Assembly (NCBI GenBank): GCA_903881215.1
Contig: CAIRSO010000879.1
Span: 1-35,735, forward strand
Source of the DNA: an uncultured Bacteroidia bacterium
Lineage (GTDB): Bacteria; Bacteroidota; Bacteroidia; Bacteroidales; Prolixibacteraceae
Direction: 5' to 3'
DNA length: 35,735 bases
Both the position numbers and the translations under genes were made by a program. The notes under the pieces are model-generated. The model saw nothing but the letters and a program-made list of their open reading frames with translations. It was not told the origin of the DNA and made no database searches. Of this stretch, positions 3,195 to 30,593 are shown piece by piece (the stretch's first letter is position 1; each line of letters starts with the position of its first letter).

Positions 3195-3273
3195 AAATTT
3201 GAGAACTTAAATAGTTAAACATTGTGCCCGTCAGACTGCAAATCAAGAGGCACGATAATTGATTATTGCACGG

Positions 3274-3304: not shown

Positions 3305-3309
3305 ATTTT

Positions 3310-4290: not shown

Positions 4291-4360
4291 TTTGCTGCAT
4301 TTATATCCTTAAAACGAATATGCAGTCAAATACCCTTAGTCAGTTGGGTTTATTTTGAAA

Positions 4361-4996
4361 TTATTTTTGGTGTGCAACTGTTGGGGTCTTCGAAGTCAGT
4401 CCCCTGACCCACATCATGAAAAGTAGAAGGGATCCCGGCAGTCTTCGTTCAAGTGCTGTTTTAATGGCCTTCAGGGCTTTGGTAAGATGACTCTCCACTG
4501 TCTTTTCGGAAAGTTCCAGCAACTCAGAAATCTCCCTGTTTTTTAGGCCGTTGGTCCGGCTCAAAAGAAAAACTTTTCGGCATTGATCCGGGAGACCTGC
4601 CACTGCAAGGTTTATTTCATCCTGGAGTTCGGATGCGAAGATATTATCCAGAATGGGGTCCGATAATGCATCAAAATTTTCGGTTAACTGTCGGTACTCT
4701 TCCTGCCTGTCGGTTCTGAATTGCAAAACCAGGCGTTCTCTCCTGATCAGATCGATGCACCTGTTCCTGGTCAGCGTAAACAAATACGCATTCAGGTTGG
4801 TGTCTTCCTTTAGTTTGTTGCGATGGTCCCACAATACCAGGAAAACATCCTGAAGGATTTCTTTGGCGTTTTCCTGATTGTTCAGATAACCATTCGCAAA
4901 ATTGAATAACCTGGAATACCAATGATCCATGATCATCTTAAAAGCCTTTTCATTTCCGGATTTTAAGGCAAACAGATATTCCGGGCTCTCTTTCAA
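4361..4996 (-). CDS. ECF RNA polymerase sigma factor (FecI/RpoE type), TTG start
   Basis: This sigma-70 family extracytoplasmic-function factor probably switches on this locus when released by the FecR protein. Region 2 spans about residues 8-93 (EILQDVFLVLWDHRNKL, then NRCIDLIRR) and region 4 about 130-183 (LPDQCRKVFLLSR, then the helix-turn-helix REISELLELSEKTVESHL). A hydrophobic C-terminal tail (LLLFMMWV) is common in Bacteroidota members. The start is TTG at 4996, with an in-frame TAA immediately before it. The first ATG in frame is about 20 codons in, which would remove the conserved start of region 2.1 (LKSGNEKAFKMI), so TTG is preferred. A candidate promoter lies just upstream. Length (211 residues) is slightly above the usual 170-200 because of the tail. 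Confidence 0.95.
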   Translation of the reverse strand: MKESPEYLFALKSGNEKAFKMIMDHWYSRLFNFANGYLNNQENAKEILQDVFLVLWDHRNKLKEDTNLNAYLFTLTRNRCIDLIRRERLVLQFRTDRQEEYRQLTENFDALSDPILDNIFASELQDEINLAVAGLPDQCRKVFLLSRTNGLKNREISELLELSEKTVESHLTKALKAIKTALERRLPGSLLLFMMWVRGLTSKTPTVAHQK

Positions 4997-5021
4997 TTAA
5001 GTTGTTGTTTGATTGTGAAGA

Positions 5022-5049
5022 CAAAAATACAATTTTTGTTGCTGCTCAA
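5022..5049 (-). promoter_or_regulatory. Candidate Bacteroidota-type promoter for the sigma/anti-sigma/susC unit
   Basis: On the minus strand, TATTTTTG (5029 down to 5022) matches the Bacteroidota -7 consensus TAnnTTTG exactly. A TTG at 5049-5047 lies 17 bases upstream, in place of the -33 element; this spacing is at the short end for this promoter type. A start site a few bases downstream would give a leader of roughly 20 bases before the TTG start at 4996. No other gap between genes in the window has an exact -7 match, which supports a separate unit here. The match is seen; activity is inferred. Confidence 0.5.
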
Positions 5050-5131
5050 CAGTAAACGCTCATATAATCCTGAGTTTATCTGCCGTTCCAGTTCGCGTCC
5101 TGTCCGGGCTTGCCCGATAATGGTTTACTTT

Positions 5132-7534
5132 CTATTTCAGGAAACCATCCAGCTCCACTGATTTTCCCGGATTGAGATTTATCTGCGTGGTTTTTCCATT
5201 ATACCGAATTTTATAGGAGCCACCATGATCTGATTGGACGGAAACTTTGGTCAGTCTTCCATTTTTCCAGTCTAAGTTAACTGTAGCAGCTCCCCTGGCA
5301 CGAAGACCATGAACGAACCCATCCGGCCATTGTGCAGGCAAAGCGGGCAATAGATGAATTTCCCCGTTTTGTGACTGAAGGAGCATCTCTGCCATGGCCG
5401 CTGCACCGCCAAAGTTGCCGTCAATCTGGAAAGGAGGATGGGTGTCGAAAAGGTTGGGCAACGTACTTTTTCTGATCAGTTCGTTGAGGTTGTCAACGGC
5501 TTTTTCGGGTTCCAGAAGCCTGGCATAAAGGCTTACAATCCAGGCTTTGCTCCATCCGGTGTGACCGCCACCACTGGAAAGTCTTCGTTGCAGCGTTTTT
5601 TTTGCGGCATTGAAGAACAGTGTATCCTTTGGGGTGATCAGGTTCAGCGGGTACAATCCCAGCAGGTGAGACATATGTCGGTGTCCAGGTTCTACCTCTT
5701 CAAAATCTTTCAGCCACTCCTGCAAAGTGCCATTGGCAGCTACCTGCAGAGGAGGCAATTTCTTCTGCGCCTCCTTCACATGGCCAACCAGGTCAGCATC
5801 AACCGACAATATTTTCGCAGCCTGGATGAAATTATTGAACAATGCGTTGACAATATGAATATCCACGGTAGGCATATAGCACAATTGAGATTTCTCTTTG
5901 GTAGGAGAGTTTGGAACGAAGAATGAGTTTTCAGGTGAATGCGACGGATTGGTGACCAGGTAACCTTCCGGGGATTTTACAAGATAGTCCAGCACAAACA
6001 GGATGGATCCCTTCATCATCGGATAGGCCACATTTTTCAGGAAATTCAGATCTTCCGTGAACTCATAATGGTCGTACAACGGAAAGGTCATCCACGGACC
6101 GTCCAGCGGCGTGATTCCCCAGACGCCATCCATCACTCCGGTTACGCCGAACGGATCGGTGAGATGGTGCATCGTCCAGCCTCCGGCATTGTACATTTCT
6201 TTGGCGGTAACAGAACCGGGAACGGTCAGCTTGTTCATGAACCCGGCCAAAGGCTCGACAGTTTCCGCCAAATTTCCGGTTTCGGCCGGCCAGTAGTTCA
6301 TCTGCAGGTTGATGTTGGTGTGAAAGTCGGCATTCCATGGGGCGTCGTAGAGGTCGTTCCAGATTCCCTGCAAATTGGCTGGCAGCTTGCCCGGCGATCT
6401 GGAAGAGTTCATCAGCAGGTACCGTCCATACTGGTAATAAAGGGCAAGAAGTCCGTTGTCGGTCTTACCTTCCTTCATACGCGCCAACCGCTCATCGGTG
6501 GCAAGATTTCCCAGATCATCCCCACCAAGAGAGAAATTCACACGATCAAAAATGGATCGGTGGTCTTTGTTATGGATCTCTTTGAGCCTTTTCAAATTGA
6601 ATTTTGCCGCTTTCGAAAGCAGGCCGTTGCAAATAGCCAACGGATCAATGGAAGGATCGGTGTTGAGCAAATCCATGTTGTAATCGGTGGCCCCGGTTAT
6701 GATGAAGGCAATGTCCTTTACCGACTGAAGTTTAAAACCTGTTGATTTGTCTGTGGTAAACGGGTCGGTTATGCCATTTGCAGATAGCACTTTCATAGCC
6801 GCGGCGTAACGCATGTGCTTTCCGGCCGGACCTTTTCCGGGTAACTCAGCATCGATTATTTGTCCGGTGTAATTCGCAATGCCATCTTTGTTTTTGTATA
6901 CATTTTCGCAAAAGGGAGCCGTTGGAGTTGATTTTTTTCTTTTGTCCTTGTTCTCATTGGAACCATCAAATTCGCGGCAAAGCAACACTTCGGCATTAAA
7001 AGCCTTGTCTGCATGGATGCTGACGACTACGATATTCTGAGGTGCTGAAACAAACACTTCCTGGGTAACCTTGGTACCATCGATGGTATATTCCGTTTTT
7101 GCAATGCCTGTGTGGAGGTTTAATGATCTTTTGTAGGCAGATGGTTCGCCTTGCCAGGCATAGTTGATGAAAAGATTGCCCAAAGGCTGGTAGGAGCGAA
7201 CTTGAGGAGGGGTTCCCACCATGTATTTATTGGAAAGTTCCAGGGCCTTTTTGTACTCCTGCTGAAAAATGGCTTGCTGAATTTCTCCCAGATGGCCCTT
7301 TGCTTCCGGATTGTTGTTGTTGATTTTAGTTCCAGCCCAGACGCTTTCTTCGTTGAGCTGAATGTTCTCATGTTTGAAATCGCCATAAACCATTCCGCCA
7401 AGTCGGCCGTTTCCAACCGGCAAAGCTTCCGTCCAGGTTTTTGCAGGGTTTTTGTACCAAAGCTCCATACTGTTCGTTTGAGCAACAACATTCAAGGAGC
7501 AAAAGGCTACTATGATAAAAATTAATTGTCTCAT
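5132..7534 (-). CDS. GH95 alpha-L-fucosidase (or alpha-L-galactosidase), secreted
   Basis: This retained-length GH95 enzyme (800 residues) should remove terminal alpha-L-fucose, or alpha-L-galactose as some family members do, by an inverting mechanism. A signal peptide ends near residue 20 (LNVVAQ). The N-terminal beta-domain opens with the family hallmark WYKNPAKTWTEALPVGNGRL (26-45). In the (alpha/alpha)6 barrel, N407 and N409 (HTNINLQMNYW), E535 (SPENSF) and D705 (FQIDGNFGG) match the residues known to be catalytic in Bifidobacterium AfcA (N421, N423, E566, D766). Its ATG overlaps the stop of the preceding gene as ATGA, so translation is probably coupled. It ends the catabolic series, 135 bp before the sigma gene. 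Family assignment is firm; fucose versus galactose is not decided by sequence alone. Confidence 0.96.
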   Translation of the reverse strand: MRQLIFIIVAFCSLNVVAQTNSMELWYKNPAKTWTEALPVGNGRLGGMVYGDFKHENIQLNEESVWAGTKINNNNPEAKGHLGEIQQAIFQQEYKKALELSNKYMVGTPPQVRSYQPLGNLFINYAWQGEPSAYKRSLNLHTGIAKTEYTIDGTKVTQEVFVSAPQNIVVVSIHADKAFNAEVLLCREFDGSNENKDKRKKSTPTAPFCENVYKNKDGIANYTGQIIDAELPGKGPAGKHMRYAAAMKVLSANGITDPFTTDKSTGFKLQSVKDIAFIITGATDYNMDLLNTDPSIDPLAICNGLLSKAAKFNLKRLKEIHNKDHRSIFDRVNFSLGGDDLGNLATDERLARMKEGKTDNGLLALYYQYGRYLLMNSSRSPGKLPANLQGIWNDLYDAPWNADFHTNINLQMNYWPAETGNLAETVEPLAGFMNKLTVPGSVTAKEMYNAGGWTMHHLTDPFGVTGVMDGVWGITPLDGPWMTFPLYDHYEFTEDLNFLKNVAYPMMKGSILFVLDYLVKSPEGYLVTNPSHSPENSFFVPNSPTKEKSQLCYMPTVDIHIVNALFNNFIQAAKILSVDADLVGHVKEAQKKLPPLQVAANGTLQEWLKDFEEVEPGHRHMSHLLGLYPLNLITPKDTLFFNAAKKTLQRRLSSGGGHTGWSKAWIVSLYARLLEPEKAVDNLNELIRKSTLPNLFDTHPPFQIDGNFGGAAAMAEMLLQSQNGEIHLLPALPAQWPDGFVHGLRARGAATVNLDWKNGRLTKVSVQSDHGGSYKIRYNGKTTQINLNPGKSVELDGFLK

Positions 7535-9462
7535 TTTGAAATATTTAATTTGTATTTTTCCATAATTGGTTTTCCCACTTCTATTCCATCAATGTTAAAA
7601 AGAAAATTGGCCGGTAGTGGTGCCGGATTGTAATAATCCAATCGCTTTTTGTTCGCAACATCAGCTTTGACTCCCAGCCATCCTGCTTGCGTATTCACTG
7701 AAAGGTCTACAGTTCCGTTTTTCTCCTCTATCTTAACAGGTGCGCTCAGTACTTTTTCCCTGAATTTTGAAAAATCGGCATCACTTTTAATTCCCTCCTC
7801 CACCTTCCACCACATGGCTATCTGGGCTTTTCCATTTTCGGGATGCCGGAGCGTGAGTCGCAGGGCTTCCTTGTTTTTCAAACTGAAATTCTCTCTGTGC
7901 GACTCATATTTGAATCCGTCATTAAAAAGCGATGCCTTTACGCCCTTATCGGCATTGTCCCACAGTACCCTGAAAGCCAAAGCCACATCTTCGAAGCGGG
8001 CAAAAATGGTATTCGTACCATCAAGAGTCACACTGCTGCCGACTTCAGGAACCTTTGACTTCTTGGTTCCTATCCAGATCTCATCGAAAGCATTTGGCAA
8101 AATGATGGTTGAATTGAGGTATTTTTTGATGCAGTTGTGGTCTTTTTCGCCAAGAACCAGCATCACAAATTCCCCTTGGTTTTGGGCCGACTGCATAAAT
8201 GGCATCAGGTGCCGGGTCTTGCCCCATCCGCCATTCGGCGGATAATTGGCCGGCATCAGGTGTTTCATTTTATCACCCAACCCTTCACTTTGCCAGGTGC
8301 CGTAATGGTCGTCACGACCTTCCATCACGAAGGCGATATTGGGCATTTCAGGGTTTTTCGGACTGCTGAGATAGATGACGAAGGGCTTGTCGTCCGGACT
8401 GTAAGCCTGATTGGATGAGGCGATGGAAACCTTATCTCCGACAAAGTCGCAGGCATAGGCGTTTGCCAGACTGTCCCATCGCTGGACGATGAACCTGTTC
8501 TTGCGGTTCAGTAACTCTTTTTGTTGAGCGGTCAATCCTATTTTTTGAAGTTCATCCAGACAAAGCTGGTTAAAAAGCTGGTTGTTGTTATTAGCTCTGC
8601 CGAGGAGAGGATTCATATATTTCTCCTCCAGAAGGTCGCGGCTGAATACACGGTTGTAGTCGCGGCTGTGGGCGCCACCCAGGTATCCGCCTCGCTGGTT
8701 GTAATGAGAGCAAAGATCTGTCAGCAAAAAATTGAGTGCATCGGCAGCTTTTGCCTTGAGATCGGCATCCGTTGTAAAACGATGAAGCAAGAGGAGCGAC
8801 TCCAGATCGACACCGCAATAGGTTGGACTATCATATTCGCGATTTCCAAATTGGGCCACATGATTTAGCCAGATATCGAAACATTTGCGCCCTTCTTCCA
8901 CCACTGAAGGCTGTTTGTAGATCTGTCCCAGTAGAGAAAAATTCAGGATTTTCATCAGGTAGATGTTGGTATAACTGATGCGTACCGGTTGATTTCGTAC
9001 ACCCAGCAGGGCATAGGCGAAAATTTCATCCAGGGTTTTTTGGGCTTCCGGCGATAGCCGATCGTTGAAAAGTAATTTTATGGAAAGACCATACTGAACA
9101 CAAAACTGGACATTGTTGCCGTCGCCCATATCACCGCCTGTTTCATTCCAGCCCCAATAAATATTACCGTAGGATTTGGCTTGCGGATCAGTAATCACTC
9201 TTGTTTTCATCAGCTTCAAGGCCCATTCTATTTGCTGCGAATTGAGAAAACGCGCATCCAGAACATCCAGAATAAAAGCGAAACAATCTCTGACTCCTAT
9301 CTGTGGTGGCGTTTGCTGAAGTGCTTTCCACTGACGTTCCAGATTGGCAGTTCGGTCAGCAGGGTTTGGCATCACCGGAATTTTGGATGTATCAGACATT
9401 TGAGCTTGAACAGTAAAAATGCCAAGTATCTGGAGCAGGAGTATCAGAACAAAAGTTTTCAT
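7531..9462 (-). CDS. Secreted protein of unknown function, likely alpha/alpha-toroid plus beta-domain
   Basis: I do not recognise a characterised family. The 643-residue protein has a clear signal peptide (KTFVLILLLQILGIFTVQAQ). A helical N-terminal half (to about 300) is followed by a beta-rich C-terminal half, a layout like toroid-plus-sandwich polysaccharide lyases. Conspicuous motifs are NIYWGWNETGGDMGDGNNVQ (100-119), EYDSPTYCGVDL (199-210) and GGAHSRDYNRVF (252-263). The second motif recurs almost unchanged in the next gene upstream (EYNSPTYYGVTL), so the two are paralogs. The ATG overlaps that gene's stop as ATGA, and its own stop overlaps GH95 in the same way. Position inside a CAZyme operon suggests a carbohydrate-active enzyme; that is inference. 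Coding status is very secure, function is not. Confidence 0.9.
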   Translation of the reverse strand: MKTFVLILLLQILGIFTVQAQMSDTSKIPVMPNPADRTANLERQWKALQQTPPQIGVRDCFAFILDVLDARFLNSQQIEWALKLMKTRVITDPQAKSYGNIYWGWNETGGDMGDGNNVQFCVQYGLSIKLLFNDRLSPEAQKTLDEIFAYALLGVRNQPVRISYTNIYLMKILNFSLLGQIYKQPSVVEEGRKCFDIWLNHVAQFGNREYDSPTYCGVDLESLLLLHRFTTDADLKAKAADALNFLLTDLCSHYNQRGGYLGGAHSRDYNRVFSRDLLEEKYMNPLLGRANNNNQLFNQLCLDELQKIGLTAQQKELLNRKNRFIVQRWDSLANAYACDFVGDKVSIASSNQAYSPDDKPFVIYLSSPKNPEMPNIAFVMEGRDDHYGTWQSEGLGDKMKHLMPANYPPNGGWGKTRHLMPFMQSAQNQGEFVMLVLGEKDHNCIKKYLNSTIILPNAFDEIWIGTKKSKVPEVGSSVTLDGTNTIFARFEDVALAFRVLWDNADKGVKASLFNDGFKYESHRENFSLKNKEALRLTLRHPENGKAQIAMWWKVEEGIKSDADFSKFREKVLSAPVKIEEKNGTVDLSVNTQAGWLGVKADVANKKRLDYYNPAPLPANFLFNIDGIEVGKPIMEKYKLNISK

Positions 9463-11018
9463 TTTATGGGTGTTATTTCGAGTAATGGATCCTCGTTTTT
9501 CCAGGAGGAAGGAATTTGAAAGGTAATTTTCATCACGGCGGGATACTCTTCAGAAATGGCGCATTCCTCGTAAATGGTTGTCCGATCGGTTATTTTTAAG
9601 TAGCTTCTTTTCAGTTTGGATTGAATAAAAAGTTCCATGGCAGGGAACCTCCACATTATTTCGGTGAAGTTTTTTTCAGCAAGATCTTTTGCATATACAT
9701 ACACAGAGAAACGGGTGCTTTTCTCATCCGAACGGTAAATTTGCATGGTTGCATTGCTAACCCGAACGTTGATTGTTCCTTCACCTGGCACCAGCAGCCA
9801 CTCTATCACATTTCCGGAGCTGATCCAATGTATGGTGCCTGTTTTTATCTGGTTCCATGCTCTCCTGTTGCCCCACAGACCGCCCATCATCCAGTCCTCG
9901 TTGACGACTGCCGTGACATGCTTCAGGGTATCCCCGGCAATTTTGGAAGGAACAAGCCGATCGAGGAATCGAGGGGTGTCGAACTCTTTCAATTGTGGCA
10001 GCACATCTTTTGGAACAGAAAGTCCAAGGTGCATGATGGTAGAAATGTTGCTCAATTCTCCAAGTTTTTCCCCGGCACCTTTGGGTAAAGGAGCTAATAT
10101 CTCCTGATCAACTGCCAAAGCAATCCATATCGATGTGATGGCATAATATTTTTTCACATCCATACCATAAGCCCGGAAATAGGGTCCGACGAAATTTTTG
10201 AGCTTTGGGTTGTAGTTGGAGGCAATTTCGTGCCACATGGAACTTTCCAAAGTTGTTCCCATTTTTTTCAATTTCTCTGAGCCCAGCTCACGCCACAAAG
10301 CAATGGCAATCAAGGTTACACCGTAATAGGTAGGCGAATTGTACTCGCTGAAAGTCTGATGCCGCTGAAATAGTTGATAGATTTCAAGGGCCTTTTTTAA
10401 TCCGGATTTCTTTAGATCATCAATTTGAAATGCAGATCCCGCATAATCCATCAGGAAGGCACTCATGATAGAAATGTTGCTATAATCTGCTCCGACATCT
10501 CTTGTCCGGGCACCTTTGGCTGCACGTATCAACCCAATTTTTATATCAGTTAAAAGATCTGCAGGCAATATATCCTTGTAGCCTTCGTAGATCAGGATAA
10601 GATCACAGCCGATAAATTCCCTCCAGTTTTTGTCCAGCCGGTCGACGGAAACATTGGTTTTCCACATCCCAAAGTTTTCACTTTTTTCATTCGTATGCTG
10701 GTTCTTCAAAATCCATCTCAGAATTTCGATCGCGTTTTCCTTGTCGCCGGGTTTGTTTCTGAACAAAAGGGCCTGAGCAACTCTGGTAGCTCCCCTCAAT
10801 CCCGCATCGCCGGTTAAAAACTGTTTGACAGTTTTCCCGGCAGGAAATTCGGAAAATACAAATCCTTCAAATAGCGACTGCTGATACCCGTTTAGTCCCT
10901 GGTAGAAATATTTTCGGGCAACAATTTCATCATCGTCTGTGGGGATGGTTATTGCCTTACCAGAGCAAAACAAGCAGCAAAGAAGCAAGACAAATATGGA
11001 TGTTCCTATCTTTTTCAT
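9459..11018 (-). CDS. Secreted protein of unknown function, paralog of the adjacent downstream gene
   Basis: This protein of about 519 residues has no family I can name. The frame is open to an ATG at 11111, but that start would overlap the preceding gene by 80 bp and add a non-signal leader. The ATG at 11018 gives a proper signal peptide (MKKIGTSIFVLLLCCLF) and a 13-bp gap, so it is preferred. The helical body carries EYNSPTYYGVTL (215-226) and GPYFRAYGMDVKKYYA (268-283). These match EYDSPTYCGVDL and GGAHSRDYNRVF of the next protein, but the His of that second motif is Tyr or Phe here. A beta-rich C-terminal part follows (GGLWGNRRAWNQIKTGTIHW). Its stop overlaps the next start as ATGA. A role in glycan breakdown is inferred from the operon only. 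Confidence 0.88.
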   Translation of the reverse strand: MKKIGTSIFVLLLCCLFCSGKAITIPTDDDEIVARKYFYQGLNGYQQSLFEGFVFSEFPAGKTVKQFLTGDAGLRGATRVAQALLFRNKPGDKENAIEILRWILKNQHTNEKSENFGMWKTNVSVDRLDKNWREFIGCDLILIYEGYKDILPADLLTDIKIGLIRAAKGARTRDVGADYSNISIMSAFLMDYAGSAFQIDDLKKSGLKKALEIYQLFQRHQTFSEYNSPTYYGVTLIAIALWRELGSEKLKKMGTTLESSMWHEIASNYNPKLKNFVGPYFRAYGMDVKKYYAITSIWIALAVDQEILAPLPKGAGEKLGELSNISTIMHLGLSVPKDVLPQLKEFDTPRFLDRLVPSKIAGDTLKHVTAVVNEDWMMGGLWGNRRAWNQIKTGTIHWISSGNVIEWLLVPGEGTINVRVSNATMQIYRSDEKSTRFSVYVYAKDLAEKNFTEIMWRFPAMELFIQSKLKRSYLKITDRTTIYEECAISEEYPAVMKITFQIPSSWKNEDPLLEITPIK

Positions 11019-11031
11019 ACTCGGCTGAATG

Positions 11032-12765
11032 TTATTCGATGGTAAATTCAAACTCGCAGGGAGCATAATTGGTGAAATAAAGGCAGTCGGCCTGCAACTT
11101 AGGCAGGGCACCTCTTAACTGTGTCCATTTGTGCGTACAGATCCCCTGACCGATTTTTATCTCATCATTGCCTTTGCGGTAGATGGCATATTCGCCATTT
11201 TTTACCAGAAAAGCATTGTTGATCCCTTGTTTTTGGGTCACATTTGTGAGTGTGCCACCCATTCGAAATCCCAGCTCCAGGGTCACCGGTAAATTTTTTG
11301 GTCCGTCGACGGTAATTTTTACCCTTGCTTTTCCATTCTCTTCGGTTACCCGGATTTTTGTGTTCAGGTTTTGTACTTCAGACTGGACCCTTTCTGTCCT
11401 GGGCACTTTCCCCCAAGCCTCTCCCTCTGCAGGAATTTTTTCTTTTGGAAGCGGCTGGTAGTAAGGTCCGGTGATGCTGGAAGACAAGACATAACTCTCC
11501 CCTTCCTTTTCCATTTTCTGGCTCGTAAACTGCCCTTTGCCAAAAAAGGAAGCTGACAGACGAACAGCTTCGAGAGCGGCTTCCCCCTTAAAAAAAGTGA
11601 GGAAAGTAGTGTTGTTTGTAAGGATTGATAGGTCCACTTTGTCTTTCCTTATTCTGACGATATCGGAGTATTTAAAATACTGGTGGTAATTTGTCGGAAT
11701 AGGGATTCCTTCGGGTAGCTCTTTCAACAATGTAGCATCTTCCAGAAAATACGGCAACATATATTCCAGTTGAGCCGTCGGCACTGTATTTTCAATGTAT
11801 CTTACCATTCCGGCATAACGATCGTCTTTGTCGAGCAGTGCCATGTAGTTGTATGCCAGATAGTATCCATTCATATTACTTATCTGGTATTTGTCTTGCC
11901 TGTTGGATGATTCGGTGACGATTTCTCCGTTAGAATGCACGAAATAAAAAGATAGGTTCAGATTCTTGCGCACATCATCGTACAGGTTGGTGAGATTCAT
12001 TCTTTTCGCCATCTCGATAAGGCTTCTGTTGGTAATCGGCGTATATCCGGCAGTACTTCTTTCGTTGTACTGTCCGTCCGGATCGATGTCAATTTTTTCG
12101 GCCAGCCATTGTTCGACCCTGGCTTGATAAGCCGGATTGGGGAAAAAGCTTTGGAGCCAGGCCAGGGCACCGGATATGACCCAACGGTGATTTGGTGTAT
12201 GGACACCTCCTACAGAAAGCGCTTTTCCTGAGTTAAGCAAATACTGTTTCATTATAGCCGGAAAATCACCATAGTCCAGTTTGTTGTTCTTCAGCATGAT
12301 CGAATAAGCCAGTGCCAGCGGATAGATTGTGAATCCCAGGTCGGGAGTTGAGTGAAAATTGGTCGAGATCAGGTCGATGGTTCCATCTTCATGTTGCAGA
12401 TTGAGCAAACCGTTCGCTGCTAGAGTGAGACGCTGAAGAATTTCTTTCGATTTGTAATATTTTGACTCAGGCGAGACATAGCCACACATCAGATTTTGAA
12501 TGTAATGTGCAGTGCCTATCGGCGAAACCACACTATCTCCGTCAAATACAGCTCCCCAATACTGGTTTTCCTTTTCCATCCACTGGTTATTCATGGCGGA
12601 TGGAATGTTTTTGTCGTTGAGTTTTACCAATTCCGAGAGCAACTCCTTTTTGCTTTTTGTTGCCCCAAAGGCTGAAGCAGTGGACGTACAAAATAAGAAA
12701 ACCAGGACAAGGGTGAAGAGACCCATGGACATATTGGTGAGGAGACAGTGCTTTTGAATTTTCAT
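11032..12765 (-). CDS. Secreted protein of unknown function, lyase-like toroid architecture
   Basis: This 577-residue secreted protein is not assignable to a characterised family by eye. Residues 1-32 form a signal peptide (LFTLVLVFLFCTSTASA). About 40-340 is helical and repetitive, and 370-577 is beta-rich, again like toroid-plus-sandwich polysaccharide lyases. The most striking segments are GGVHTPNHRWVISGALAWL (186-204) and DGQYNERSTAGYTPITNRSL (230-249). They place Asn192, His193, Arg194, Tyr233, Glu235, Arg236, Tyr241 and Asn246 close together, and Asn/His/Tyr/Arg sets do the chemistry in toroid lyases. A lyase acting on Rha-GlcA or another uronic-acid linkage would fit the GH105 gene just upstream, but this is a guess. 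It lies 98 bp after GH105 and 13 bp before the next unknown gene. Confidence 0.88.
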   Translation of the reverse strand: MKIQKHCLLTNMSMGLFTLVLVFLFCTSTASAFGATKSKKELLSELVKLNDKNIPSAMNNQWMEKENQYWGAVFDGDSVVSPIGTAHYIQNLMCGYVSPESKYYKSKEILQRLTLAANGLLNLQHEDGTIDLISTNFHSTPDLGFTIYPLALAYSIMLKNNKLDYGDFPAIMKQYLLNSGKALSVGGVHTPNHRWVISGALAWLQSFFPNPAYQARVEQWLAEKIDIDPDGQYNERSTAGYTPITNRSLIEMAKRMNLTNLYDDVRKNLNLSFYFVHSNGEIVTESSNRQDKYQISNMNGYYLAYNYMALLDKDDRYAGMVRYIENTVPTAQLEYMLPYFLEDATLLKELPEGIPIPTNYHQYFKYSDIVRIRKDKVDLSILTNNTTFLTFFKGEAALEAVRLSASFFGKGQFTSQKMEKEGESYVLSSSITGPYYQPLPKEKIPAEGEAWGKVPRTERVQSEVQNLNTKIRVTEENGKARVKITVDGPKNLPVTLELGFRMGGTLTNVTQKQGINNAFLVKNGEYAIYRKGNDEIKIGQGICTHKWTQLRGALPKLQADCLYFTNYAPCEFEFTIE

Positions 12766-12863
12766 AACAGGACAAATTTTTTATGATGTGTGATAACTTT
12801 AAAACGGTACAAAATTTCTCCCCAACAGGGATTAAATGAGGACAGATAAACGATGAAACTTGA

Positions 12864-13997
12864 TTATCTCAACTTCTCAAATTCAAGATAGAACATGATG
12901 TATGCACCTATGGCATAATTGACACCTTCCTTAGTTTTTCTTCCGAAATAATAGGCACGATCGCCAATGCAAGTTCCCTCACAAACTTTGATTGGAATCA
13001 GGTATTTCCCATCTTGCTTGGTGGCATTTTGTTGCAATCCGGTATAGGCTTTTTGTATCACTGGCAGGAATGTTTTTTTACTCAGAACTTTTTTCTGAAT
13101 TCCGATGGTGATCCCATAAGCAAACATTGCGGTGCAGGAGCTTTCTACATAATTGGCCTGTTCATTTGGATATATTGGCAGTTGGTACCACATCCCTGTT
13201 TTTTTGTCCTGAAGGGCCGGCAGATTTTTGGTGATCTCCTTCAATTCTTTGGCAAAAACTTTGAAATAAGATGATTTTGATGGCACAGTATTCAACGCAT
13301 CAGCCAATGCCATTACTACCCAACCGTTGCCGCGCCCCCAAAATTCGATGCTTTTTCGCTCCGCTGTCATTTGTGCCCAGTTAAGCTGGCAGCAACGGTC
13401 TTTGTAATCGTCGTTGTCGTCATCGCAACCATGTACCCAGAGACCCCATTTTTTGTCGGCCAGCTTCTCTTTGTGGATCAGGTATTGTTTCAGCAACTCA
13501 TCGATGTATTTCTCATCTCCTGTGTATCGGTACATCTCCAAAAGAAACATGCTGATCATGTAAATGGTATCGTCCCACATTTCTACCGTTTCGGTTCGGT
13601 GCGATACACCGCCTGCCCTTGTTCGGGGCGTTGTCAGGTAGTCGGCATAAATCTTGTTGGCCTTTTCGATGTACCGCGGATCGCCGGTTATTTTTGCCAG
13701 GAAAGCCATGCCGTGCCCGGATGCCACTGCATTGGGATGCATGCCATTTGCGTCATTCATGGTAAGATCCATGGCTGTTTTGATGTAATCCAGGTATACC
13801 TTTTTCTCCGCTTCCGGTTTAGAATTGTACAGGTGAACCATGGAATTCAGCATGGTTGCTTGTCCCCAGTCCCATTTGTACTGGGTAGCCGGCATAAACA
13901 CTTCGCGGCCATAGACATCCAGCGAGTCGATGCGGGATTGGGCGTTCAGAATCCCGGAGAATAGAATTAGTCCTAAAATGGTGATCAGTTTTTTCAT
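12864..13997 (-). CDS. GH105 unsaturated uronyl (rhamnogalacturonyl) hydrolase, secreted
   Basis: This enzyme hydrates and releases the 4,5-unsaturated uronic acid left at the non-reducing end by a polysaccharide lyase. The 377-residue length fits GH105/GH88 proteins. A signal peptide ends near residue 20 (SGILNAQ). The (alpha/alpha)6 barrel carries ETVEMWDDTIYM (136-147), where D143 aligns with the catalytic Asp of Bacillus YteR, and FWGRGNGWVVMAL (219-231), also typical. An unusual Asp/Cys-rich stretch lies between them (HGCDDDNDDYKDRCC, 189-203). The gene starts 4 bp after the GH127 stop, so the two are surely co-transcribed. Its presence implies that a lyase works in the same pathway, most obviously the heparinase-like protein at 28050-30593. 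GH88 is the main alternative. Confidence 0.93.
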   Translation of the reverse strand: MKKLITILGLILFSGILNAQSRIDSLDVYGREVFMPATQYKWDWGQATMLNSMVHLYNSKPEAEKKVYLDYIKTAMDLTMNDANGMHPNAVASGHGMAFLAKITGDPRYIEKANKIYADYLTTPRTRAGGVSHRTETVEMWDDTIYMISMFLLEMYRYTGDEKYIDELLKQYLIHKEKLADKKWGLWVHGCDDDNDDYKDRCCQLNWAQMTAERKSIEFWGRGNGWVVMALADALNTVPSKSSYFKVFAKELKEITKNLPALQDKKTGMWYQLPIYPNEQANYVESSCTAMFAYGITIGIQKKVLSKKTFLPVIQKAYTGLQQNATKQDGKYLIPIKVCEGTCIGDRAYYFGRKTKEGVNYAIGAYIMFYLEFEKLR

Positions 13998-14001
13998 GAT
14001 T

Positions 14002-17562: not shown

Positions 17563-19602
17563 TCAATTGACTCTATTTGCCGTTTGATTAACCGGAAATA
17601 TCCGAAGCATGATGACCCCATGATACCTGATTTCGGCAGCAAAAGAGTCGCTGAATTCGCCCAAATCCTTTTGTCTCCAGAGATCTCTCAATTTCAGAGT
17701 TCCGGTCAGTCCCAGCTTCTTGAAATCCAGCGTAAATTGTTTTGGCACTTCGTTGCCCCATCGAAAATAGGTTGGTGGAGTTTTGCCATAGTCGTCCGTG
17801 TAGAAAAGTCCGACTGCGATTGAGCCGTCCTCCAATGGTTTCCGCCAGATCTGCACGCCATTTTCATCGGCTACCAGGCGTGCCGGTTTGCCCAAAGGAT
17901 CCTGGTTCACGGCAATGACTTCATCGTTGGTGAGCAGATTGAGGGTAAAATCATCCAGCTGCTCGATTGGGCAACCGATCAGCAGAGGTGCTGCCAGCAG
18001 GCTGAAAATGCTGACGTGGCTGTATTGTTCATCCGGCGTTAGCTTGGTTGGATGCATCACGGAAGGACCCATGCTCACGTTCCCTAGCACCATCATGTCG
18101 GGATCATTCCAATGACCGGGACCCCCATAACCGGCCCATTTGTCAATGGTGAAAGCCAGCGAATAGAGACTTGTCCAGCTGTCACGAATATCCGGACCTG
18201 TACGCCAGGCATTGGTTAACCGGGCCCAGTCTGCAGCCTTCTCAAATGGGGCATTGTTTGATATGCTAAAAACGATGTCCCTTCCTGATTTTTTAAGAGC
18301 ATCCGACATGAGTTTGGTTGAGGTTACATCGATTTTCCAGTCGTATTTAAGGTAGTCGAACCCCCACTCGGCCATTTGAAGTGCATCATTTGTTTCGAAC
18401 CTGGACTTGCCGATTGGTCCGGATGAGCGCCTGTTTTTCTTGATGGGTTCATGTTTTTCGCCGCCTTTTTCAAAATCGGAGGATGCCCCCGGATAGCCGG
18501 CATAACTATAAACGTAAGGCGTAGAGTAGATGCCGGCCCTCAAGCCAAGGGAATGGATATACTCCACCATTTCCTTGATTTTCGGAAATTTTTCGTTTGG
18601 CTGCAATGCATTCAGTTTGCCTCCGCGGAAGCCTTGCCACGAATCATCAATGTTGATGTAGCTCCAGCCGTGGTTGTTCAAGCCCTTGCTCACCATGGCA
18701 TCTGCTGTGGCAATCACTTTCTCCCTATCGATCTTTTCAGCCCAGGAATTCCAGCCATTCCAGCCTATCGGAGGAGTTAAGGCAATGGTATCCCCAATGC
18801 ATATTTTAAGGATCACGGATGCCTCGCCCAACTCATTTTTCGCTTTGAGTGAGACAGGATAAACGCCACGTTTGGCCACTTTTCCTGTGATAATACCTGT
18901 CTGCGAGTCCAGCTTAAGTCCCCCGGGGAGATTGGATGCGAAAAATTCCATCGGGCGTTTCCCGGTAGTTGCAATTGAATAAAAAAATGGATTTCCGGGT
19001 GTTGCACCGAAGATTCTTGCAGAATTGATTCGAGGTGTTTGCGGAGGATCAGGTGTCAATGTTACTTTTTCGTCGGTATTTGGGATAAGCGCTGGAAGAC
19101 TGTCCCGAATCATCTCAAATTTCGCATTGGCCCAGTTGCAGTAGGTCATCTTATTCTTTAATCCTCCGATATCATCGATAGCCAAAAGTCCCAATCTCTT
19201 AATACCTCTCAGGTCGAGGGCAATCTTTTTTGCCGGATCGCCAACGCGCATTTCACCGCTTTCGAACAATATTTTCTTGTCTCCGACCACATAAAATTTT
19301 ATCGCTATATCCTTGTTCGCCTTGTCATCGGCTCCGACTTCTGCGGTAAATTTCAAGGCATTCCCGTTTAGAAGGAAGGGAAACACCGCGGGAGTGATTG
19401 ATCCAATCCCTCTTTGATAGGAAACACCGGCAATGTGAATGGTATCTGACATATAGCTGGATTTGGTTTTTACCGGACGGATTCCTTCCGAAAACGAAAC
19501 CATCGTCAGGTCATCCAGCCAAACTTCAGATCCTTTTTCTGCACATGATCCGAGGATAATGCAACAGATGTACAGGGCAAAAACCTTTGATATTTTTTTC
19601 AT
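17563..19602 (-). CDS. GH27 alpha-galactosidase-like lipoprotein with N-terminal NPCBM domain (copy A)
   Basis: This retaining exo-glycosidase is most likely an alpha-galactosidase; alpha-N-acetylgalactosaminidase or beta-L-arabinopyranosidase are known alternatives in GH27. The 679-residue protein has a lipoprotein signal with LGSC at 17-20. An NPCBM-type carbohydrate-binding domain follows (about 25-165, with IHIAGVSYQRGIG), then a putative Ig-like domain (about 190-270, with LPGGLKLDSQTGIITG), then the GH27 barrel from PPIGWNGWNSW (277-287). D421 in YLKYDW is the nucleophile, and R467/D471 in WRTGPDIRDSW match Arg227/Asp231 of human alpha-galactosidase A. It lies 3 bp after a close paralog, with near gap-free alignment over the whole length. 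The two probably act on different linkages or sulfation states of the same sugar; that is inference. Confidence 0.96.
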   Translation of the reverse strand: MKKISKVFALYICCIILGSCAEKGSEVWLDDLTMVSFSEGIRPVKTKSSYMSDTIHIAGVSYQRGIGSITPAVFPFLLNGNALKFTAEVGADDKANKDIAIKFYVVGDKKILFESGEMRVGDPAKKIALDLRGIKRLGLLAIDDIGGLKNKMTYCNWANAKFEMIRDSLPALIPNTDEKVTLTPDPPQTPRINSARIFGATPGNPFFYSIATTGKRPMEFFASNLPGGLKLDSQTGIITGKVAKRGVYPVSLKAKNELGEASVILKICIGDTIALTPPIGWNGWNSWAEKIDREKVIATADAMVSKGLNNHGWSYINIDDSWQGFRGGKLNALQPNEKFPKIKEMVEYIHSLGLRAGIYSTPYVYSYAGYPGASSDFEKGGEKHEPIKKNRRSSGPIGKSRFETNDALQMAEWGFDYLKYDWKIDVTSTKLMSDALKKSGRDIVFSISNNAPFEKAADWARLTNAWRTGPDIRDSWTSLYSLAFTIDKWAGYGGPGHWNDPDMMVLGNVSMGPSVMHPTKLTPDEQYSHVSIFSLLAAPLLIGCPIEQLDDFTLNLLTNDEVIAVNQDPLGKPARLVADENGVQIWRKPLEDGSIAVGLFYTDDYGKTPPTYFRWGNEVPKQFTLDFKKLGLTGTLKLRDLWRQKDLGEFSDSFAAEIRYHGVIMLRIFPVNQTANRVN

Positions 19603-19605
19603 AGT

Positions 19606-21615
19606 TCAAATTTTTTTCATTCTTATCATGACCACCCCATGGTGCCTTATTTCTGTCTCGAACAAACCGACAAAAGCTCCCAGATCCTTTTGTCGCCAGA
19701 GATCCCGGAGTTGGTATTTGCCTTTTAAACCAACTTTGGCAAAATCAAACGAATACTTTTTCGAAGGTTCATTGCCCCAGTGGAAGTAAGATTGAGGTGT
19801 CTTTCCAAAGTCTGCTGTGTAAAACAAGCCAACCGCTACCGAGCCATCTTCCAACGTTTTTGCCCAGATTTGAACGCCATTTTCATCGGCAACCAGGCGT
19901 GCCGGTTTGCCCAAAGGATCCTGGTTCACGGCTATCACTTCATCATTGGTGAGCAGATTTAGCGTAAAAGCATCCAGCTGTTCGATGGGACAACCTATTA
20001 GCAATGGTGCCGCCAGCAGACTGAAAAGGCTGACGTGGCTGTATTGTTCATCGGGCGTGAGTCGGGTCGGATGAAGGTCGGTGCCCGTGGTTACATTTCC
20101 GAGGATCAGCATATCGGGGTCGTTCCAATGTCCGGGCCCGCCATAGGGAGCCCACTTGTCGATGGTAAATGCCGAAGTATATAGGCTCAGCCAGCTGTCG
20201 CGAATATCAGGACCGGTGCGCCAGGCATTGGAGATTCTGGCCCAATCTTTCGCCTGAGCGAATGGCGCTGAATTGGATAAGCTGTACAAAATGTCCCTTC
20301 CCGATTTCTTCAAGGCCTCCGACATCCGCTCAGCGGAAACAAGATCGATACGCCAGTCGTATTTCAGGTAATCGACACCCCATTCTGCCATTTGCAGGGC
20401 ATCTTCTTTTTCGAATCTGAACTTTCCAACATAGCGATATGCTCTCTTGTTGGCCTTGATAGAATCAGGATATTCTCCTTTTTCAAAGTCGGATGAGGCA
20501 CCGGCATATCCGGCATAGGTCGAAATCCAGGGAGTGGAGTAAACGCCAAGTTTTAGTCCCATGGCATGAATGTCGTCAATCATCTCCTTAAACTTTGGGA
20601 ATTTCTCGTTGGGCTGGATGCCATTGAACTTTCCTCCCCGCTGACCCTCCCAGGCATCGTCGATGTTGATGTAGGTCCAACCATGATTGTTAAGTCCCAT
20701 CATCACCATGGCATTGGCAGAGGCAAGTACCTTTTCCCCATCGATATTCCTGGCCCAGGAATTCCAGCCGTTCCAACCGATTGGGGGGGTGAGTGCGACG
20801 GTGTCACCTACCACAATTTTCAACGATTTTGTGCCTACGCCGGATGCGCTTTTTGCTACAAGTGTTGCAAGGTAGGATCCCATCTTGGCAACTTTCCCTG
20901 TGATGATACCGGTTTTGGTATCCAATGATAGTCCGCCGGGTAAGTTCTTTGCCGAAAAAGTGATGGGTCTTTCACCTGTGGCAACAATGGTAAAAAGGAA
21001 CGGATTGCCTGGCGTCACCCCAAAAATTCCGGCCGAATTAATTTTGGGAGATTTGGCCGGGGCAGGAGTTAAAATGTATTTTTCTCCGTCGTTGGGAATG
21101 GGTTGAGGCATGTTTTCGCCTTGCATAACCAGCTTTGCGTCTGCCCAGTTTGAATAGGTTCGGCCATAACCCTCATCATCCAAATTTACTGTTACGAGAA
21201 GTCCCAGACGTTGAATCCCGGCAAGGCGAACATTCACTTTTTTCGGTAGATCACCAACCTTCATCGGACCGCTTTCGAAGAGGATTTTTTTATCGCCAAC
21301 AACAAAAAACTGAACATGCATGGATGTATTCCCCTTGTCATCGGCGCCTACCATCGCTGAAAATTGTTCGGCTTTCCCATTCAGTAAAAAGGAGAGTACC
21401 CCGACCGACTGAACCCCAACGCCCCGGTCAAACTTCTTGCCGGCGATACGGATAGAATCTCCACCCTGATTTTTCTTTGCAGAAACGGAAGGAATCCCTT
21501 GCGAAAAGGTTTGGATTTTTAGATCATCCAGCCAGATTTTGGTGGTCTTTTGGGTGCAAGCCCCAAAGGAGAGAAGGAGAATTAATGGGATGACGAAACG
21601 TATAGACTTGTACAT
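19606..21615 (-). CDS. GH27 alpha-galactosidase-like lipoprotein with N-terminal NPCBM domain (copy B)
   Basis: This is the second GH27 enzyme in tandem, with 669 residues and the same layout as copy A. It has a lipobox cysteine at residue 20 (LLLSFGAC), an NPCBM domain (about 25-165), a putative Ig-like domain (about 190-270), and a GH27 barrel from PPIGWNGWNSW (277-287) ending in a beta-domain. Nucleophile D420 (YLKYDW) and acid/base D470 with R466 (WRTGPDIRDSW) are intact. By eye about 60 percent of residues are shared with copy A, and more in the barrel. One stretch of 41 bases (19892-19932) is identical to 17873-17913. Only 3 bp separate the two genes, so they are co-translated products of a local duplication. 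The sugar specificity remains open as for copy A. Confidence 0.96.
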   Translation of the reverse strand: MYKSIRFVIPLILLLSFGACTQKTTKIWLDDLKIQTFSQGIPSVSAKKNQGGDSIRIAGKKFDRGVGVQSVGVLSFLLNGKAEQFSAMVGADDKGNTSMHVQFFVVGDKKILFESGPMKVGDLPKKVNVRLAGIQRLGLLVTVNLDDEGYGRTYSNWADAKLVMQGENMPQPIPNDGEKYILTPAPAKSPKINSAGIFGVTPGNPFLFTIVATGERPITFSAKNLPGGLSLDTKTGIITGKVAKMGSYLATLVAKSASGVGTKSLKIVVGDTVALTPPIGWNGWNSWARNIDGEKVLASANAMVMMGLNNHGWTYINIDDAWEGQRGGKFNGIQPNEKFPKFKEMIDDIHAMGLKLGVYSTPWISTYAGYAGASSDFEKGEYPDSIKANKRAYRYVGKFRFEKEDALQMAEWGVDYLKYDWRIDLVSAERMSEALKKSGRDILYSLSNSAPFAQAKDWARISNAWRTGPDIRDSWLSLYTSAFTIDKWAPYGGPGHWNDPDMLILGNVTTGTDLHPTRLTPDEQYSHVSLFSLLAAPLLIGCPIEQLDAFTLNLLTNDEVIAVNQDPLGKPARLVADENGVQIWAKTLEDGSVAVGLFYTADFGKTPQSYFHWGNEPSKKYSFDFAKVGLKGKYQLRDLWRQKDLGAFVGLFETEIRHHGVVMIRMKKI

Positions 21616-28049: not shown

Positions 28050-30593
28050 TTAATATTTTCTCATGGCTTTTAGAATGGAAGCCGGAATTTCATCTGATGC
28101 CTCCTGAAATATTTCCTTTCCATCTATCACTTCCAGCAACTTTGAACTCTCGTTTTTCTGTCCTTTGTAAGTTTTTGCTCTAAACAAAAGATCACCTCCT
28201 GAGACCAGCGAGGCACTGTTGTCAGACTTCCACACTTTGATACCCGCCGGTTTTGATGAATTCATTTCAGCTTCTATTTTCCAGTCACCTATTGTGAAAG
28301 AGGAATTCTCCTTATCGGTAGTAATCTTCTCAAAAGTGCTATCCGGCTTGACCTGAAATATCGCCAGATAGCGCATCGATTTTGTTTTCTCTTTGGATAT
28401 AGCTTTGAAATGCCACTGATTTTTAAAAACCATGGTGTCTCCCTCTTCGTCTGTTTTATTTGTCCAATTGTCTATTGGAATCGTAAACTGATCGGTTACC
28501 TGATAATCAACTGGCGAGGAGGCATAGAGTGATACCCTTGCATAAGCTGCATCATTTTTTGCCAGGATAGATTTTGTTTTAGGATCAATCGCCAATCCGG
28601 TATCGTTGTGAAGCAACCAGCTCCAGCCGGCATTGTGGTCTGCCTCCAGTTCATCATAAATCACAATGGTGGATGGGAGAAGCATGAGGTAATGGCGCCT
28701 GAAAAGTTTCATCCCGAGATCGGTTTTCACTCCATCCACGGCTCCTGAATAGGCATTGGAGGCATCGCCAACGGCATAAGACAGTTGATTGCCGTGAAGG
28801 AAACGGGGTATCCATCCGTAAGCTGCGTCGCTGAATGGCTGTCCTTCGCCATCAATTAAAATTCCGTTGTGACCCTGCGTATGTTTGTACCAACCCAGAA
28901 AATGCGGATCGCCCATGGCCGGTCGGTAGCCTGTATTGTAAAAAAGTCTTTTCCCTCCATAGGCTATATTAAACGTGTTTTGATCGGCATGGGCGTGTGC
29001 CATTGGTCCATAGGGACTGCTTCGCAAGGACAGCATAAGGTCTGTTTTGGCATTTTGCATTGTTGTATGCATGTAAGCAACGCCAATATCAGGAAAGCGT
29101 GCCGCCTGTGGAAGGATAAATTCTTTTACAGTTGCAGGATGTTTCATTTTAAGTCCGCTGCGAATTCTAAACCAGCGAAATTCTTCGTCATCGGCAATCT
29201 CTTTCCCGAGGCTTTTCGCGATGGTTTGAGCATACCACCCTGCATAAGGCAGATTTGACAATCGTGCCATAGCGTCTGCATAACCCGCATAATTGATAAT
29301 GGGAAACTGATATCTTTCCCCGTCATTACAGAACCCGTCTGAAACAGATTTTGGCGGGAAGGCATAGATCAGCCATCGTGGATTGTTTTGAAACCAGTCT
29401 TTAGTCATGAAGTCGATACCGGAAAGATCTTTGAAAATCGATGAAACATCGATCAACGAAAGCGTATTCATGCCGAAATAGGAAGTGCCGTTAAACCAGG
29501 CACCATCTTCTTCGCCCATCTTTGGTGACTGGGCTATCCATAGTTCGTAAACATATTCAATCCATTGGTCAGGTTCGGGAATCTCCCCTTTTAAGGCCAG
29601 GGATGTCTGTAGTAAATTGTGAAGAATGTGTTGCCAAACATGCATGGAGGAAGAGCGGCTTTCCACTTGATTGATCCATAGGTTATAAAACTGAGAGGCT
29701 CGTATGGTGGTATGACTGATAATTTGCTCTCTTTCTGCTGCCGATAACACATCCCAAAAAGTATCTACTCCGATGGCAAGGCCGGACATGATACCGGCAT
29801 CACCGAAATTATTGGTATGAGAAGGTCCGTTGGGATCCCATTTTGAAATCTCCAGCATCCAGGTTTTAGCAGTATTGAAATATTTTTCATCTCCTGTTAA
29901 AAGGTAGGCTTGAGAAAGTGTAATGATCACCTTATGGATATTCCATCCCGCCCATTTACTTGAAATAGAAGCTATTTTTTCGTTTTCAAAATTATCCTTT
30001 CCCTTAAAGGAAGGCAGGGCAGATGATTCAGAGGGGGCAGGTTTGTTCAAATAGCCATCTGCTTCCCTGATCAATAAAACTGCTTCTTTGTAATTCGCGG
30101 CCCTTTTCCTTAACTCGTCAAGTTCTGTTTTTTTGATTAAAACCCTTGGATGAGCCGAGGTGATTTTTGTTTGAAGCTTGTGGCTATCGGGTGTGACAAA
30201 TACCCGTGTGGAGGATTTAATGACAAATGAATCGGGCTGATTCCATTTTTCCTCATTGACCCTGTATTGCCAGTACCATAAACCTGGTTCAAGCTTTTTG
30301 TGCGGATTGAAAATAGCATAGGGGATTCTGTTCCCGGTTATGACATCACCGCTGAAATCTCTTGTGGAGGATATTCTTACGCTATAGCTGGCTTTTTTCT
30401 TTGTCGGCCACTGCAGGCTTGGTGAATTGAAATTTGGTTCCTCACCTGCCGACGGCGATGTCCAGATCCTTATTTTTGGGTAAATTGCCCCACCACCGGG
30501 TTTATCGGAGGGTGTATTTTGGATCTCCTGAGCTTGGAGGGAATTCAGTACAAAAAGCAGTATCGGGAGTAATAACAGATGCTTGCCAATCAT
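28050..30593 (-). CDS. Heparinase II/III-type polysaccharide lyase (DUF4962 + Hepar_II_III_C), secreted
   Basis: This large secreted protein (847 residues) probably cleaves uronic-acid linkages by beta-elimination. A signal peptide ends near residue 22 (VLNSLQAQ). An Ig/Fn3-like N-terminal section of DUF4962 type spans about 35-150, with GLWYWQYRVNEEKW. An (alpha/alpha) toroid spans about 150-480, with WQHILHNLLQ (320-329) and FNGTSYFG (367-374) supplying candidate His, Asn and Tyr. The beta-sandwich begins near 500 with the hallmark MAHAHADQNTFNIAYGGKRL (531-550). Similar layouts occur in several lyase families for heparan, chondroitin, alginate and related polymers, so the substrate is not fixed. 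It sits among four sulfatases, and the GH105 gene downstream would process its unsaturated products. Spacings of 15 and 32 bp imply one transcript. Confidence 0.9.
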   Translation of the reverse strand: MIGKHLLLLPILLFVLNSLQAQEIQNTPSDKPGGGAIYPKIRIWTSPSAGEEPNFNSPSLQWPTKKKASYSVRISSTRDFSGDVITGNRIPYAIFNPHKKLEPGLWYWQYRVNEEKWNQPDSFVIKSSTRVFVTPDSHKLQTKITSAHPRVLIKKTELDELRKRAANYKEAVLLIREADGYLNKPAPSESSALPSFKGKDNFENEKIASISSKWAGWNIHKVIITLSQAYLLTGDEKYFNTAKTWMLEISKWDPNGPSHTNNFGDAGIMSGLAIGVDTFWDVLSAAEREQIISHTTIRASQFYNLWINQVESRSSSMHVWQHILHNLLQTSLALKGEIPEPDQWIEYVYELWIAQSPKMGEEDGAWFNGTSYFGMNTLSLIDVSSIFKDLSGIDFMTKDWFQNNPRWLIYAFPPKSVSDGFCNDGERYQFPIINYAGYADAMARLSNLPYAGWYAQTIAKSLGKEIADDEEFRWFRIRSGLKMKHPATVKEFILPQAARFPDIGVAYMHTTMQNAKTDLMLSLRSSPYGPMAHAHADQNTFNIAYGGKRLFYNTGYRPAMGDPHFLGWYKHTQGHNGILIDGEGQPFSDAAYGWIPRFLHGNQLSYAVGDASNAYSGAVDGVKTDLGMKLFRRHYLMLLPSTIVIYDELEADHNAGWSWLLHNDTGLAIDPKTKSILAKNDAAYARVSLYASSPVDYQVTDQFTIPIDNWTNKTDEEGDTMVFKNQWHFKAISKEKTKSMRYLAIFQVKPDSTFEKITTDKENSSFTIGDWKIEAEMNSSKPAGIKVWKSDNSASLVSGGDLLFRAKTYKGQKNESSKLLEVIDGKEIFQEASDEIPASILKAMRKY

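Follow-up and report, generated by a model that had tools for sequence, protein, structure and literature searches.

Tandem toroid-fold proteins from a Prolixibacteraceae carbohydrate locus form a candidate family of uronide lyases

Results

Gene organisation of the locus

The stretch of DNA analysed here, referred to as the window, is a single 35,735-nucleotide (nt) contig, CAIRSO010000879.1 (contig C879 of genome G000), from the assembly of an uncultured Prolixibacteraceae bacterium (GCA_903881215.1), which is fragmented into 881 contigs and is 85% complete and 5% contaminated. The main genes of the window all lie on the minus strand, opening with an anti-sigma/extracytoplasmic function (ECF) sigma factor pair, a glycoside hydrolase (GH) of family GH95, and the genes for proteins A, B and C. 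Beyond C are a GH105-type hydrolase, a GH127 protein, an oxidoreductase, two NPCBM-GH27 proteins, GH29 and GH28, and farther on four sulfatases, a polysaccharide lyase (PL) 15-like exolyase and a GH106-like protein. Our analysis of predicted structures and conserved residues suggests that A and B, and more tentatively C, belong to an undescribed family, lacking a sequence match in Pfam, NCBIfam or the PDB, whose members are most likely beta-eliminating uronide lyases.

A first-pass annotation of this DNA had described A and B as a translationally coupled tandem pair. Inspection of the open reading frames (ORFs) bore this out: B and A overlap by ATGA (9462-9459), as do A and GH95 (4 nt, 7534-7531). 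For B we take the ATG at 11018 as the start; a longer GTG ORF extends to 11111 and would overlap C, the end of which (11032) lies 13 nt upstream of the B start. As to the signal peptides proposed for both proteins, hydrophobic, signal-like stretches can be made out by eye at their N-termini.

Table 1 Features of the window. Coordinates are positions in the window; aa, amino acids.
Feature	Coordinates	Strand	Remarks
GH95	5132..7534	-	4-nt overlap with A
Protein A	7531..9462	-	643 aa, ATG start; toroid (~24-320) plus beta domain; candidate uronide lyase
A, motif G263-A-H-S-R267-D-Y269	8656..8676	-	G, R and Y invariant in 63/63 rows
A, motif E209-Y-D-S-P-T-Y215	8818..8838	-	Y215 candidate acid/base; E209 invariant
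A, N166	8965..8967	-	Candidate carboxylate neutraliser (58/63 rows)
Protein B	9459..11018	-	519 aa; diverged homologue with the same predicted two-domain fold, lacking the beta-domain segment that holds H442 of A
B, motif G278-P-Y-F-R282-A-Y284	10167..10187	-	
B, motif E225-Y-N-S-P-T-Y231	10326..10346	-	
Protein C	11032..12765	-	577 aa; probably also toroid-lyase-like, the third of the array (conserved residues N192-H193, E235, S237, Y241 and R289)
GH88/GH105-type unsaturated uronyl hydrolase	12864..13997	-	Nearest solved relative YteR
Two tandem NPCBM-Melibiase_2 (GH27) genes	17563..21615	-	Same gene type as in the A fusions of L076 and L082
PL15-like exolyase	28050..30593	-	DUF4962 + Hepar_II_III; context

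A and B are homologues outside the curated families

As a single pair, A and B align by BLASTP at E=1e-6, with 25% identity across 117 aa. A profile of 24 relatives, built without A-clade or B-clade rows and run against the 19 proteins of the window with Z set to 5000, matched B at 6.7e-44 and A at 5e-20; beyond these two it returned only C, at a non-significant 6.4. That the A3 profile finds A and B follows from the way it was built. Both proteins carry the motifs noted in the first pass, namely EYDSPTYCGV (A209-218) or EYNSPTYYGV (B225-234), and a second one of the form G-x-[HY]-x-R-x-Y (A263-269, B278-284). The pair is confirmed as homologous. A recent tandem duplication was rejected, as a tree of 52 proteins places A and B in separate clades, the deep forks between its large clades being partly weak.

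Scans of A and B returned zero Pfam or NCBIfam families at E up to 0.1, so no curated cut-off was reached, in line with the earlier view that the family is uncharacterised. The relatives scanned gave no family either, and three non-fused relatives likewise gave none. Searches of the PDB by phmmer with A, B and two relatives yielded chance-level rows or none, and profiles of the A-led, B-led and C alignments gave chance-level results there as well. A plasmid collection held no match to A, and a Paenibacillus relative matched only one unannotated Streptomyces place in it. No description of the family was found among the papers listed in literature searches, the source being open-licence PubMed Central (PMC) papers, which are not searchable by sequence.

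Predicted fold

Confident AlphaFold models of A (predicted local distance difference test, pLDDT, 91.7; predicted template modelling score, pTM, 0.90) and B (pLDDT 89.9, pTM 0.89) both display an alpha/alpha toroid in the N-terminal half and an antiparallel beta domain in the C-terminal half, which bears out the helical and beta-rich halves described in the first pass. In Foldseek searches with A, the best 31 rows comprise 30 toroid lyases (PL8/12/15/17/21/35/39 types) and human dermatan sulfate epimerase 1 (DS-epi1), with E from 2.1e-10 and the epimerase (6hzn) at rank 17 (5.6e-8). With B, toroid lyases fill the first seven rows (chondroitinase 9o3q, PL33, two PL35, PL12, and PL15 twice; E from 2.7e-7), and 6hzn is at rank 11 (2.5e-4). 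Complement proteins, transcobalamin and terpene synthases also gave rows, but these were discounted, since the proteins have nothing beyond the helical toroid in common with A and B. No weight was given to families missing from the VIA-align lists. By VIA-align, hyaluronate lyase leads for A (Z 12.6, root mean square deviation 5.3, 481 aligned residues), and for B a PL35 enzyme scores Z 13.9 over 402 residues spanning both domains. Structure prediction and fold comparison thus give a predicted toroid-plus-beta-sheet fold of the lyase class, together with the candidate active-site set described below. Neither of the outcomes that the first pass had named as contradicting its proposal, a confident match to a characterised CAZyme family or a fold with no active-site pocket, was encountered in the Pfam, NCBIfam, PDB and structure comparisons.

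Candidate active site

We aligned 63 rows (28 A-clade, 5 B-clade and 30 others; residue numbers follow A). E209, Y215, G263, R267 and Y269 are identical in all 63, S212 and P213 are kept in 62, and N166 in 58. The B-clade rows keep N181, E225, Y231, R282 and Y284 (5/5), and B has Tyr where A has H265.

The A profile was then compared by hhalign with sets of known lyases. It matched PL12 at P=2.8e-4, with the Asn of PL12 opposite N166 and its E..Y motif opposite E209..Y215, and PL8 at P=3.3e-5, pairing Y215 with a Tyr that follows a His by nine residues. Nine decoys (three reversed alignments and six other families) reached P=0.0069 at best; a PL17 comparison, with 3 sequences, was uninformative. 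In the excerpts of published accounts available to us (PMC12088678, PMC11848413, PMC12915356), Asn/Tyr pairs are given for PL33 (N238/Y291), PL35 (N192/Y246), PL12 (N240/Y294), PL39 (N186/Y239), PL15 exoHep (N336/Y390), PL17 (N201/Y258), PL8 (N183/Y242) and PL40 (N245/Y305). The Asn-Tyr spacing is 53-60 in these eight lyases as excerpted, versus 49 in A (N166/Y215), 50 in B and 49 in C. The conserved residues of A, N166 and Y215 among them, may correspond to the Asn...Tyr pair of toroid lyases.

Protein C is a probable third member

The first pass had confined the array to two genes and overlooked C. The two-gene tandem stands, but the array is probably longer: C directly upstream is likely to be a third toroid protein, giving the order C-B-A. 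Pfam and NCBIfam assign C to no family at the curated cut-off, the one NCBIfam match being a chance row far under it. In a 19-row alignment, the invariant residues of C include N192, H193, E235, S237, Y241 and R289; its N-E (43) and E-Y (6) spacings are the same as those of A, while Y-R is 48 as against 52. By hhalign the C profile matched PL12 at P=2.3e-4, with the Asn-His of PL12 opposite N192-H193 and its E..Y motif opposite E235..Y241. This support is only modest, as an unrelated comparison of C with an oxidoreductase reached P=0.0016, a chance-level result. A match of C to PL8 (P=1e-4) was set aside because the region covered differs from the motif. Since, in addition, direct comparison of the A and C profiles was not significant (P=0.027 over 27 columns), C is a probable rather than proven member of the same structural class, and a more divergent one.

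Distribution of the family

A pattern scan of the genome_contigs collection recovered 389 stretches, of which 320 encode relatives; the best 80 were analysed as loci. Among these, 43 (L044-L086, some partial) carry A orthologues with 58-75% identity, mostly from metagenome-assembled genomes (MAGs) of Prolixibacteraceae, Chitinophagaceae and Saprospiraceae, and the remaining 37 carry distant relatives from several phyla. In all, relatives were found in Bacteroidota, Bacillota (including Paenibacillus), Planctomycetota, Verrucomicrobiota, Chloroflexota, Armatimonadota and Latescibacterota.

Across 140 genomes of the window's own family, A is present near full-length in 11, C is matched in 22 (E up to 0.001), and B orthologues of at least 57% identity occur in three: G000, which is the window's own genome, G274 and G275. 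G274 additionally carries a 37% paralogue of B. In all three occurrences (the window, L044 and L048) B sits directly between C and A. In G339, one of the 11 genomes with A, a single in-frame TAA splits the orthologue (L045, match 10001-11899, on the contig G339:C5) into ORFs of 395 and 247 aa.

Further members are encoded in the window's genome. Contig C22 (L209, G000:C22:1-16000) carries a second tandem pair and a third, more distant member (3853-5733, 5761-7539 and 12160-14385), adjoining GH35 and a GH42-like gene. Contig C155 (L208, G000:C155:1-12000) encodes a distant member at 5067-7013 with the motifs ENHQ, EYYSNVYY and GRAY; here (154-8139) a GH95-like gene, DUF1961 and an unnamed 550-aa protein precede the member, and a GH88-type gene lies 43 nt after it. 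The unnamed protein matches one family profile weakly (1.1e-5), and a similar run of GH95-like, DUF1961 and a 560-aa protein occurs in L044 (14235-19178). Large proteins without a Pfam match were also seen in L059 (2-2176, 725 aa; 2164-4350, 729 aa), L112 (11370-15062, 1231 aa) and L044 (17499-19178, 560 aa).

Genomic context

Neighbours of the 43 A loci were counted on whatever flank was present. NPCBM-GH27 occurs in 32, a GH105-type gene in 25, C in 21 and a GH95 orthologue in 9; among the 19 loci flanked by 4 kb or more on each side, the corresponding figures are 17 for GH27, 15 for GH105-type and 14 for C. The strict coupling with a fucosidase noted in the first pass therefore holds in the window but was rejected as a trait of the family. 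In two MAGs the A sequence is fused with NPCBM-GH27 in one ORF (L076, 1933 aa; L082, 1023 aa, truncated by the contig end). The A loci share descent and their counts are not independent of one another; the distant clades supply separate support. In Paenibacillus, an oligogalacturonate-lyase (PL22) gene lies ~20-45 nt after the relative in 6/7 loci (called by Pfam on L098, the genes of the other loci being 73-92% identical to it), and in the seventh a GH88-type gene precedes the relative; a signal peptide is not evident by eye in these proteins. In L112 and L117 a GH88-type gene directly adjoins the relative. By raw contig counts in the window's genome, PF07470 genes are present on all three member-bearing contigs (C879, C22 and C155), on 12/881 contigs overall, and on 2/25 sulfatase-bearing contigs without a family member. 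The recurrence of GH105, PL22 and NPCBM-GH27 beside the family suggests that they probably act in the same pathway.

Within the window, the GH88-type neighbour of C is far closer to YteR of GH105 (6.5e-39) than to 5noa (1.8e-15), which we take to be a PL27 member, and a PL27-like identity was rejected. The GH127 protein (14002-15957, minus strand) scores 439.8 bits against the NCBIfam aceric acid hydrolase model NF049879, well under the cut-off of 950; it is a relative of a rhamnogalacturonan-II enzyme, here found beside sulfatases. For the DUF4962 + Hepar_II_III protein, the PL15 exo-heparinase 6lja is the nearest match (E 9.3e-111), followed by the oligoalginate lyase 3a0o (1.2e-38), so the locus already holds one recognisable lyase. 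Elsewhere in the same genome, contig C247 (L172, L189, L200) carries a PL8 and two PL12-type genes, and contig C352 (L184, L186) two PF05426 alginate-lyase-type genes beside sulfatases.

Discussion

Proposed function

With its predicted fold, its key residues and neighbours able to process elimination products, the family looks like undescribed polysaccharide lyases. From the homology, fold predictions, residue invariance, gene neighbourhoods and fusions presented above, we infer the catalysis, residue roles, substrate and division of labour as follows. Secreted A and B, and tentatively C, would cut a uronic-acid-containing poly- or oligosaccharide by beta-elimination. In A, N166 would neutralise the uronate carboxylate, Y215 would serve as acid/base at the C5-H and the glycosidic oxygen, and E209, R267 and Y269 would hold Y215 and the substrate in place. 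Cleavage would leave a 4,5-unsaturated uronate on the product, to be taken off by the GH105-type hydrolase, whose gene lies just upstream; GH27, GH95, GH29, the GH106-like protein and the sulfatases could strip other sugars and sulfates. The enzyme set of the locus suggests a rhamnose-, fucose- and galactose-containing uronan as substrate, and C, B and A may split the labour on one such sulfated, uronate-bearing heteropolysaccharide. The earlier proposal of a new glycoside hydrolase or lyase family is thus narrowed to a lyase-class fold, its lyase side being favoured by the absence of a Pfam or NCBIfam match, the predicted fold with its candidate active-site set and the uronide-processing neighbours and its hydrolase side being disfavoured, and is widened to three genes and several phyla.

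Several observations weigh against a lyase assignment. The template modelling (TM) scores of A to solved lyases are low (0.30-0.46 over the query in the best 31 rows, with one of 0.26), and the fold match is therefore at the level of the class, with no assignment to one lyase family. Structural comparison of B is divided: single-domain GH8-type toroid hydrolases come first in VIA-align (Z 15.5, 268 aligned), ahead of PL35, and GH127 takes rank 8 in Foldseek. Profile support for the active site is marginal, as two other clades taken alone gave no signal against PL8 and PL12 (P 0.29 and 0.11 for one, 0.014 and 0.032 for the second). PL12/15/17/21/33/35/39/40 lyases use a catalytic His of the beta domain (Tyr for PL17, in one account), yet the nearest candidate in the present family, H442 of A, varies: 45/63 rows have His there, and the segment is absent from B. 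In terms of context, 2 of the 19 well-flanked A loci (L063 and L075) have no GH105-type gene, GH27 or C, and a profile derived from the window found a GH88 gene in just 3 of the 37 distant loci, many of which are on short contigs. Carbohydrate genes also cluster unspecifically, which accounts for some of the neighbourhood pattern.

Alternative explanations

The alternative that survives best, although we consider it unlikely, is that A is an active lyase and that B has diverged into a non-catalytic or substrate-binding partner. The missing H442 segment, the Tyr in place of H265, and the rarity of B together with its fixed place between C and A are consistent with such a role; the model of B nevertheless retains both domains, and the five B-clade rows keep the complete Asn, Glu, Tyr, Arg and Tyr set.

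We hold it somewhat less probable still that A and B are glycoside hydrolases built on a toroid scaffold, as in GH8, GH88, GH95 and GH127, with E209 as acid or base. The invariance of E209 and the toroid hydrolase matches of B would fit this, but the matches that span both domains in full are lyases, the Asn/Tyr/Arg/Tyr set shows the same invariance as the Glu, the PL12 profile has a Glu at the same place, and no second invariant acidic residue is listed in the 63-row alignment.

It is improbable that A, B or both are uronosyl C5-epimerases, which have the same fold and tyrosine/carboxylate chemistry but reprotonate C5 and keep the glycosidic bond. DS-epi1 is found among the Foldseek matches of both models, and the excerpted text of PMC11848413 describes the catalytic apparatus of the lyases as common to this enzyme; however, the gene set of a degradative locus (sulfatases, glycosidases and a GH105-type hydrolase) fits product processing better than polymer editing, as does the PL22 gene adjoining the cytoplasmic-looking relatives. 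Least probable of all, and very doubtful, is that A and B are binding or structural proteins whose residue pattern reflects fold packing: the toroid is also known from non-enzymes such as complement C3d and transcobalamin, lower in the structure-match lists, but polar Asn, Glu, Tyr, Arg and Tyr are conserved across several phyla and A is found fused to a glycosidase.

Wider significance

Beyond the uronide lyase function proposed for A and B, there is an even chance, in our judgement, that A, B, C and their relatives form a large unrecognised superfamily of toroid uronate lyases comprising several new PL families. These would share an N...E-x-x-S-P-x-Y...R-x-Y site independent of the usual beta-domain His, and would function in Bacteroidota loci as tandem arrays of secreted proteins and in Paenibacillus as oligouronide lyases of the cytoplasm, encoded next to PL22. 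Lyases are the enzymes that open acidic algal and plant polysaccharides, and a new lyase family would give access to glycans that at present can be neither cut nor analysed. The family is widespread, has no name in Pfam or NCBIfam, and offers a clear candidate active site together with genomic partners, so that the proposal is directly testable.

Comparison with known systems

GH105 (YteR), PL22 and NPCBM-GH27 are recurrent genomic partners of the family and belong to different families, without a sequence match to A or B. Lyases of PL12/15/17/21/33/35/39/40 resemble A and B in the two-domain fold predicted for the latter, their Asn and Tyr may have counterparts at similar spacing, and the E..Y motif of PL12 aligns with E209..Y215 of A. 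They differ in sequence, with ~10% identity and no Pfam or PDB sequence match, and the invariant G-x-x-x-R-x-Y motif after the Tyr helix sets A and B apart. PL8 enzymes (chondroitin AC, hyaluronate and xanthan lyases) share with A its predicted fold and the Asn...Tyr...Arg order; the Tyr234/Arg288 spacing of chondroitinase AC, as given in the excerpt of PMC8733870, is 54, and that of Y215/R267 in A is 52. PL8 has a His where A has Glu209, six residues before the Tyr, and A has no match to the Lyase_8 models. Human DS-epi1 is of the fold class predicted for A and B, with no sequence match, and is an epimerase rather than a degradative lyase; if our reading of A and B as uronide lyases is true, the family would add a branch to the common history of toroid lyases and glycosaminoglycan epimerases.

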